From contig JAUWNJ010000012.1 of assembly GCA_030612725.1 (NCBI GenBank), positions 1-64,000 of the forward strand: a stretch of 64,000 bases of DNA, read 5' to 3'. Numbering within the stretch: position 1 is the stretch's first letter; each line of letters opens with the position of its first letter. This document shows positions 56,940 through 60,193 of the stretch, piece by piece. The stretch comes from Planctomycetales bacterium (lineage in GTDB: Bacteria; Planctomycetota; Phycisphaerae; SM23-33). The notes beneath the pieces were generated by a model, which did no database searches, was not told the origin of the DNA, and was given only the letters and a program-made list of their open reading frames with translations. The position numbers were made by a program, and so were the translations under genes.

Positions 56940-57236
56940 CTAATGTCGGTCATGCCACCGTTCCGGATCGCGGCTCGCATGATAAATGGCAATAACAAAG
57001 ATTGTCTCCCGTTTGATTACGTAGTAAATCCCAAATGGAAATCGCCGAACCAGCGCCCTACGGACTTTATTGTGAACGGCAGGAAAAAGTTTGGGATTTC
57101 TTTGAATGAATGCGAGGCGGGAAATAACAGTGCGACGGAATTCATTGCCCAATCCCGGGCTTCTGTTCTCGTACCAATGATATGCCTCCATCAGTTCCGC
57201 TTTTGCCACAGGACGGATGATGAGACGGTAACTCAT
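56940..57236 (-). CDS. RelE/ParE family toxin
   Basis: The 98-residue product matches the RelE/ParE plasmid-stabilisation superfamily: SYRLIIRPVAKAELMEAYHW, YENRSPGLGNEFRRTVISRL, then RRALVRRFPFGIYYVIKRET and IFVIAIYHASRDPERW, the latter the HxxRxPxxW-type end. ParE members poison gyrase and RelE members cut mRNA; which applies is not clear. It begins within the last codons of the upstream antitoxin gene (4-bp overlap), so they are coupled. The frame extends 34 codons upstream through that gene and is not used. Confidence 0.92.
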   Translation of the reverse strand: MSYRLIIRPVAKAELMEAYHWYENRSPGLGNEFRRTVISRLAFIQRNPKLFPAVHNKVRRALVRRFPFGIYYVIKRETIFVIAIYHASRDPERWHDRH

Positions 57237-57457
57237 GCGCTCTGCCTGATTTCTGATATGAGCTCTTCCAAAGTTGAACCTGCTTCCGGATTGTCCCTCA
57301 ACGCCTCCAAGCGACGGTCCAACTCTTCTTTCTGCCAATCCGTCAGTTCGACCGCATCAGGCACAGAAGCGATACTGTCCCAAATGTCCTCAACCAGTTG
57401 GATGCGTTCAGCCAGGCTCAGCGCAAGCACATCAGTCATGGAAATAGTTTCTTTCAT
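57233..57457 (-). CDS. addiction module antitoxin (TIGR02574 type)
   Basis: The 74-residue product is typical of the putative addiction-module component family that pairs with ParE-like toxins: ALSLAERIQLVEDIWDSIAS, then ELTDWQKEELDRRLEALRDN and PEAGSTLEELISEIRQSA. It would wrap around and neutralise the downstream toxin and may repress the operon. The first ATG (57457) or the second at codon 7 can serve as start. It follows dnaX by 43 bp on the same strand and lies between dnaX and ybaB. Confidence 0.9.
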   Translation of the reverse strand: MKETISMTDVLALSLAERIQLVEDIWDSIASVPDAVELTDWQKEELDRRLEALRDNPEAGSTLEELISEIRQSA

Positions 57458-59520: not shown

Positions 59521-59971
59521 CTTCAACACCAAACCGCCCAACAGGATGGTCCACCAGGACAACACCTCGGCGGAGAATTCAGCCCCGCTATAGCGGATTG
59601 CGGGTCATCCCGGCAAGCCGGAAATCAGGGCACCGCTAACGCCCCGCCTAGCACGACAGGATCATAATAGAGCAGTACCTCCTGAAAAGCAAGTGCAACA
59701 AGGACGGGGGATTGGTAGAAATGTCCGCCGATGAACTGGCGGATATGGTAGCACAGACGGTTTATGAGGCGTAGTTGGGACCGGGAGCGATTCTCAAGCA
59801 AATTAGTTGACAGCAGCACCGTTTTATGTAAAATGAAATGTGCTGCATCGGGATTTCTGCGGCGACTACTGATTAGGGCAGATAACTTTGAGCCACTTAT
59901 GCATGTAGCAAAGAACAACCTCTTCTTTTTTGGCGGAATCTTCCCCCTGTTCGTCAAAAGGAAAGGAGTAC
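59521..59971. other. spacer between the SRP RNA and tRNA genes
   Basis: About 450 bp with no recognised gene. It must contain the promoter of the minus-strand SRP RNA-dnaX unit and the plus-strand promoter at 59807-59834. A 56-codon frame starting at 59833 runs into the tRNA and overlaps the -10 element, so I do not call it a gene. Confidence 0.5.
59807..59834 (+). promoter_or_regulatory. strong sigma-70-type promoter upstream of the unusual tRNA
   Basis: A consensus TTGACA at 59807-59812 and TAAAAT at 59829-59834 are separated by 16 bp. Transcription would begin near 59841 and reach the tRNA after a leader of about 130 nt, which RNase P would have to remove. Confidence 0.65.
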
Positions 59972-60063
59972 GGAGAGGTGGCAGAGTGGCTTATTGCTCC
60001 TGATTGATAATCAGGCACGTTCTTAACAGATGCGTCGCGGGTTCGAATCCCGCCCTCTCCGCA
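59972..60063 (+). tRNA. class II tRNA with serine-like body and GAT (Ile) anticodon
   Basis: The cloverleaf folds cleanly. The acceptor GGAGAGG pairs with CCTCTCC (60054-60060) and G73 follows. The D arm is GCA/TGC with loop GAGTGGCTTAT. The anticodon stem CCTGA/TCAGG is a perfect 5 bp enclosing the loop TTGATAA, so the anticodon is GAT at 60006-60008. The T arm GCGGG/CCCGC encloses TTCGAAT. Between positions 60016 and 60036 is a 21-nt variable arm, class II as in Ser, Leu and Tyr tRNAs. It has a short stem (ACGT/GCGT) and an unusually large 11-nt loop, TCTTAACAGAT. G1, the GGAGAGG acceptor and G73 fit serine. GAT normally decodes isoleucine AUC/AUU, so body and anticodon disagree. No CCA is encoded (GCA). 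An RNA complementary to its variable arm is encoded just downstream. Confidence 0.88.
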
Positions 60064-60086
60064 TAATTTTTATATTTTTCTAAAGA

Positions 60087-60115
60087 TTCTTTAGGCAAAA
60101 GTCGTATAATATAAT
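60087..60115 (+). promoter_or_regulatory. promoter of the antisense small RNA
   Basis: TATAAT occurs twice in overlap (60105-60110 and 60110-60115). A weak -35 TTCTTT at 60087-60092 lies 17 bp before the second. Start of transcription would be about 60117-60122. Confidence 0.55.
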
Positions 60116-60116
60116 A

Positions 60117-60193
60117 TAGTTTGAATGGCTGTTAAGAGCGTGCCTGAGCTTTAATCGGGCAACTGACACCGCCTTTTTGGGCGGTGTCTTTTT
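60117..60193 (+). ncRNA. predicted small antisense RNA complementary to the upstream tRNA
   Basis: A transcript of about 72-77 nt is predicted between a TATAAT box and an intrinsic terminator. Bases 60129-60147 (CTGTTAAGAGCGTGCCTGA) can pair with tRNA bases 60011-60029 over 19 positions, with one G-U wobble. This covers the 3' anticodon stem and the loop of the variable arm. After a symmetric 6-nt internal loop opposite the anticodon loop, bases 60154-60159 pair with 59999-60004, again with one G-U. The small RNA can also fold alone: CCTGA (60143-60147) with TCGGG (60155-60159) makes a 5-bp stem and 7-nt loop, leaving CTGTTAAGA single-stranded, ready to contact the tRNA's 11-nt loop. No open reading frame is present. 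The regulatory role is inference. Confidence 0.7.
60165..60193 (+). terminator. rho-independent terminator of the small RNA
   Basis: GACACCGCC (60165-60173) pairs perfectly with GGCGGTGTC (60180-60188) around the loop TTTTTG and is followed by five T residues. Confidence 0.92.

Follow-up and report, generated by a model that had tools for sequence, protein, structure and literature searches.

A predicted mistranslating serine tRNA and its antisense complement in Planctomycetota: a candidate two-RNA module

Why would a bacterium with complete sets of serine and isoleucine transfer RNAs (tRNAs) carry one more tRNA, with a serine-type body and an isoleucine anticodon, and why would the sequence just behind this tRNA be complementary to it? 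The question is raised by a locus in a 64,000-nucleotide stretch of contig JAUWNJ010000012.1 (assembly GCA_030612725.1, positions 1 to 64,000 of the forward strand), here called the window, which belongs to a 3.16 Mb, 96% complete genome of the Planctomycetota (G000). The answer that we favour, and consider probable, is a two-RNA module in which a predicted mistranslating Ser tRNA is silenced by a dedicated antisense RNA. The pairing between the two is accepted mainly because the changes in its core compensate one another between G000 and a second genome, G028, and none of them breaks a pair.

A serine-type tRNA and its downstream complement

ARAGORN calls the gene tRNA-Ile(gat) at 59972-60062; the Rfam tRNA model gives it 58.7 bits, and the cloverleaf of 59972-60061 is intact. 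In an alignment with the tRNASer genes of G000 itself, it matches them in the acceptor sequence GGAGAGG, in G73, in the T arm and in the long variable arm, and the agreement of acceptor stem and G73 led us to reject a misread tRNALeu or selenocysteine tRNA. The isotypes of body and anticodon disagree both here (Ser body, GAT) and at the locus in G028 (Ser body, CAA). The tRNA is surplus to the Ser and Ile sets, since G000 already holds tRNASer with anticodons GCT, TGA, GGA and CGA as well as a normal tRNAIle with GAT. Seryl-tRNA synthetase (SerRS) does not read the anticodon; because it uses the variable arm, the acceptor stem and the D-stem pair 11:24 instead, the tRNA is predicted to carry serine to AUU and AUC codons. 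The identity elements of the enzyme are the long variable arm, the discriminator, the acceptor stem and the 11:24 pair, and in yeast a tRNASer bearing a Pro anticodon is lethal (PMC6827378). Cloverleaf and SerRS identity elements are intact at both loci.

Downstream, at 60129-60159, lies an inverted copy of tRNA positions 59999-60029 (31 nt, 81%). An earlier reading of the window, made from the sequence only, had described here a 19-nt core with one G-U pair and a 6-nt block with another, followed by a perfect intrinsic terminator, and these are present as it put them; the TATAAT box that it placed behind the tRNA proves to be two boxes, at 60105 and 60110 (Table 1). It had also set a gap exactly opposite the anticodon loop. 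Such a gap exists but is only 3 nt long: in the best duplex, which has 31 pairs and extends over tRNA 59994-60029, just U36-A38 of the loop stays open, since U32-A35 can be paired by UUUAA of the small RNA. At 59994-59997 the duplex reaches the D-stem, whose 3' strand UUGC pairs with GCAA of the small RNA, and it covers the variable arm and G24, both SerRS identity features. The complementarity score of the window locus, 53, is the highest among 1541 tRNA flanks (mean 23.4, standard deviation 4.4); in the same scan the G028 locus scores 49, tied with one Ser tRNA that has a GC-rich repeat downstream. When tRNA and complement stretch are folded jointly, the energy is –88.5 kcal/mol (z = –6.0).

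The second locus (L283/L514) came from a search of 35 genomes of the family and belongs to another genus. Its tRNA has the same Ser-type body with the Leu anticodon CAA, and G028 also carries a normal tRNALeu(CAA). About 60 bp 3' of this tRNA begins a complement, CCTACGAAGGCATGCCCGG..., that is complementary to the local tRNA and has a terminator of differing sequence at the equivalent place behind it. An A/T-rich TATAGAAT stands at the place equivalent to the TATAAT boxes, the small-RNA counterpart folds at z = –4.3, and the motif CTTTAA[T]CGGGCAAC is common to both small RNAs. tRNA and small-RNA genes are adjacent, with about 55–70 bp between them in either genome. Within the 19-bp core, 10 sites distinguish the two tRNAs and another 10 the two small RNAs; nine pairs have both members replaced, two have one member replaced with a standard pair kept, eight are unchanged and none is broken. 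Not one of 10^6 random replacements with the same number of changes retained all 19 pairs, and this result, together with the top flank score, leads us to reject a chance inverted repeat. Conservation of the pairing in relatives had been set beforehand as a check, and the compensatory changes in G028 bear it out despite the different anticodon there.

Computed binding is specific as well. Cofolded with its cognate tRNA, the window's small RNA gains –12.9 kcal/mol; the best of the 48 other tRNAs of G000 reaches –2.2, and an exchange of small RNAs between the two loci yields 0.0, all these energies leaving out tRNA tertiary structure and modified bases. This specificity and the coverage of SerRS identity elements agree with blocked charging. 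The idea that the small RNA is itself a toxin against ordinary tRNAs was rejected, as no binding to the 48 native tRNAs was computed.

Table 1. Features of the tRNA locus and its complement (positions in the window)
Feature	Position	Strand	Basis or remark
Promoter-like TTGACA-16-TAAAAT, candidate tRNA promoter	59807..59834	+	consensus 11/12
AAAGGAG leader element just 5' of tRNA	59962..59968	+	alignment; same element at G028 locus
Ser-bodied tRNA, GAU (Ile) anticodon	59972..60061	+	ARAGORN, Rfam, alignment with the genome's Ser tRNAs
tRNA side of second antisense block: D-stem 3' strand UUGC, anticodon-stem 5' strand, U32-A35	59994..60007	+	cofold, duplex prediction
Anticodon GAT	60006..60008	+	ARAGORN and sequence; CAA at G028 locus
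tRNA side of 19-bp core: anticodon-stem 3' strand, variable-arm 5' strand and loop	60011..60029	+	
Overlapping TATAAT boxes, candidate –10 of small RNA	60105..60115	+	sequence
Predicted antisense small RNA of about 75 nt with putative 5' end	60117..60193	+	folds at z = –5.4
Small-RNA side of 19-bp core (CTGTTAAGAGCGTGCCTGA)	60129..60147	+	
Small-RNA hairpin TGCCTGA-GCTTTAA-TCGGGCA; 3' side also complements tRNA	60141..60161	+	fold
Intrinsic terminator, 10-bp stem, 4-nt loop, T5	60165..60193	+	

Distribution and surroundings of the locus

The combination of tRNA and complement occurs in 2 of the 35 family genomes. A pattern search over the 38 genomes of the order found Ser-bodied tRNAs with A or T at position 35 in G000 and G028 only, and none with C or G at positions 35 and 36; the genus mates of G000 are without a Ser-bodied GAU tRNA. 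Neither 397 genomes of the class nor 392 of the phylum yielded a further case, the other pattern matches being tRNATyr or carriers of a Tyr anticodon in both sets, and a relaxed Ser-body pattern gave an agreeing result. Two such Ser-like bodies (GGTGGCGGAG) with the Tyr anticodon GTA, at G080:C1:4480398-4480467 and G172:C312:5442-5512, come from another family of Planctomycetota and may be the tRNATyr of that family. In a class-wide scan the motif CTTTAA[N]CGGGCAAC adjoins a tRNA only in G000 and G028; seven of its nine matches have no tRNA nearby and were set aside as chance. Among the tRNASer genes of the family, several (of L255, L259, L268, L271, L274, L275 and L278) have a repeat downstream whose ends, GGATTCGAAC ... 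GGGTTCGACGCC or similar, resemble a T arm; it may be a mobile element or derive from a tRNA.

Ser-bodied tRNAs with the Ile anticodon GAT also recur in unrelated prophage contigs of IMG/VR, where others carry GAA, TAA or CAT (contigs L337, L344, L351, L355, L357, L390, L394, L404, L412, L414 and L462-L468), and these odd tRNAs often precede a terminator-like hairpin. The prophage Ser(GAU) tRNAs (L337, L351, L355, L390, L394, L412, L414, L462-L468) resemble that of the window in their Ser body and Ile anticodon but have no antisense partner within 4 kb. Because their bodies are diverse, they probably arose independently, and the odd Ser-bodied tRNAs of prophages may form a class of mistranslating phage tRNAs that has gone unreported.

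On its 5' side the tRNA of the window is preceded by two elements. For the promoter-like sequence the G028 locus offered no comparable match. As for the leader, AAAGGA is missing from the 30 nt upstream of the 48 other tRNAs of G000. AAAGGAG resembles a Shine-Dalgarno sequence, standing 3–4 nt ahead of the odd tRNA both in the window and at L283, and in the window a GTG inside the tRNA follows it, with a short frame MAEW-IAPD.

The neighbours of the tRNA locus are the signal recognition particle (SRP) RNA gene with dnaX and two unknown open reading frames (ORFs). The locus is, by comparison of the relatives, in lineage-specific DNA, because homology beside the SRP RNA gene ends at 59693. For the ORFs adjoining the tRNA no informative family match was found. 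No phage or defence-island signs were found among the neighbours, whose genes are ordinary or of unknown family, and a plasmid or phage origin of the tRNA was rejected, its matches being ordinary Ser tRNAs only and the neighbouring ORFs uninformative. A type II toxin-antitoxin pair lies beside dnaX (56940-57457, minus strand), with a ParE-type toxin and an Unstab_antitox antitoxin. Elsewhere in the genome, L122 (G000:C23:50918-50992) is a tRNA-like gene with a four-base anticodon (atac) according to ARAGORN and 50.7 bits in Rfam.

Proposed mechanism and rival explanations

In the module that we propose, the first RNA would be a tRNA charged by SerRS and bearing the wrong anticodon, which in its free form would put serine at Ile codons in G000 and at Leu UUG in G028, and the second would be the antisense RNA encoded just 3' of it. 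The unpaired 5' end of the small RNA would first meet the variable loop; strand exchange would then open the variable arm and the anticodon stem, with pairing running on to the D-stem. Such a duplex would destroy the SerRS identity elements, leave little of the anticodon arm exposed and possibly make a substrate for RNase III, and the tRNA would be silent as long as the antisense RNA is made. Were the latter to fall below the tRNA through loss of the locus, stress or a shut-off of transcription, the more stable tRNA would act; a stable tRNA with a shorter-lived antisense RNA would behave as a toxin-antitoxin pair. What the sequences show is the arrangement of the parts, the surplus status of the tRNA, the covarying complementarity and the specificity in computed binding; transcription, serylation, inactivation in the cell and harm are what we infer here. 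Of the sequence-only reading, the antisense relation stands through the covariation with G028, whereas its toxin-antitoxin label, separate transcription and effect on growth stay inference. We only tentatively suggest a new RNA-only toxin-antitoxin class, in which the toxin is a mis-decoding Ser tRNA whose anticodon and variable arms are unfolded by a co-evolving antisense RNA; this is quite possible, though we would not call it probable. If it is true, a change of anticodon would direct the toxin to a new codon, with the antisense RNA keeping pace.

The anatomy would be identical if mistranslation were regulated rather than addictive, the tRNA being useful under stress (a statistical proteome, tolerance) and the small RNA a brake. 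Both loci lie among ordinary chromosomal genes, and PMC11415595 describes Streptomyces tRNAProX as natural dedicated mistranslators of unknown host role. However, sporadic presence and a different codon at each locus argue against a conserved adaptive programme. We find this explanation rather doubtful on the whole, and prefer a toxin-antitoxin-like use to adaptive mistranslation only slightly. A separate antisense RNA would not be needed at all if tRNA and complement formed one transcript, in which back-pairing of the trailer keeps the tRNA from folding until the transcript is cleaved or terminates early. No terminator was found between tRNA and complement, the inner promoter has a weak –35 and the joint transcript folds strongly into a form in which the tRNA arms are open. 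On the other hand, an A/T-rich –10-like sequence stands just before the complement at both loci, the complement begins near the predicted start site and the small-RNA hairpin is stable independently; a cis-acting trailer is in our opinion unlikely, and a promoter belonging to the small RNA itself is plausible from the sequence.

Two further explanations do without mistranslation. The tRNA-like RNA might be a decoy or sponge for a small RNA with other targets, or a non-translating pseudo-tRNA; pseudo-tRNAs with regulatory effects are known (PMC3399842), and the conserved AAAGGAG leader is odd for a tRNA. A decoy, however, would need neither a valid acceptor stem nor an anticodon, and with the intact cloverleaf and identity elements in both genomes this is very unlikely. 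Template-switch correction of quasi-palindromes can restore the complementarity of imperfect inverted repeats, and in principle such a process at the DNA level could keep short repeats alike where the RNA has no function. But the arms are about 100 bp apart, the complementarity ends at equivalent structural points in both loci, both retain the non-complementary loop CTTTAA along with the spacing and the position of the terminator, and chance is excluded by the flank scan and the replacement test, which makes an absence of RNA function highly improbable.

Against the module of mistranslating tRNA and antisense RNA several points must be counted. The loci number only two and come from draft genomes of a single family, and at neither were mobile-element or defence genes found. 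The small-RNA promoter has a good –10 but a poor –35. The cognate pair of G028 gains just –4.7 kcal/mol in the cofold (–3.1 kcal/mol with slightly longer ARAGORN boundaries), because both partners fold well alone; the cognate tRNA is still the best partner among the 30 tRNAs there. Finally, prophage Ser(GAU) tRNAs exist without an antisense RNA, so neutralisation of this kind is not a necessity for such a tRNA.

Known systems and significance

The known targets of base-pairing RNA control in bacteria are mRNAs and other small RNAs. A word search of the open-access literature, which is weak evidence of absence, found no description of an antisense RNA that specifically serves a tRNA. Bacteria do keep tRNAs that mistranslate, as PMC11415595 documents with the dual-identity tRNAProX of Streptomyces and Kitasatospora, linked with ProRSx. 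Like the tRNA of the window, tRNAProX is a natural bacterial tRNA that comes on top of the normal set and combines a body and an anticodon of different identity, and its family has more than one wrong anticodon; unlike it, tRNAProX has a Pro body, odd A33/A34 and usually a synthetase isoform beside it, and the review section on it mentions no antisense partner. The window locus, with its Ser-type body and other neighbours, lacks the Pro body and linked ProRS isoform that define this group. The tRNASer(CAG) of CUG-Ser yeasts, reviewed in PMC11415595, resembles the G028 gene in joining a Leu anticodon to a tRNASer, which is possible with a SerRS that does not read this triplet, and differs in being a eukaryotic codon reassignment with no antisense regulator.

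Among toxin-antitoxin systems, SdsR/RyeA of type VIII likewise has an RNA toxin neutralised by a base-pairing RNA, but its genes lie opposite each other and its toxin is a regulatory small RNA, whereas here the two genes follow each other on the same strand and a tRNA is the presumed toxin (PMC6610125). The pairing of antitoxin RNA with toxin RNA that marks type VIII is found here at the level of covariation and cofold specificity, and the genes are adjacent, as type VIII also requires. CreTA is also a two-RNA module acting on tRNA function; CreT, however, is a mini-ORF that sequesters a rare tRNA, while here the tRNA itself would be the effector, and CreA is a CRISPR-type guide that acts on transcription with Cascade (PMC8501985). 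No Cas component was seen at the tRNA locus (cas genes were not searched genome-wide), and no direct-repeat family was found around it, though a Shine-Dalgarno-like AAAGGAG does stand before a GTG inside the tRNA.

The eukaryote filter of tRNAscan-SE 2.0 marks conflicts of body and anticodon as 'probably not functional' (PMC8450103), so genes of this kind may be overlooked. A scan for such tRNAs whose flank holds their own complement offers a route to hidden mistranslators. A tRNA controlled by its own antisense RNA would add a new kind of regulatory target, and one that is kept neutralised as a toxin would link deliberate mistranslation with toxin-antitoxin biology.
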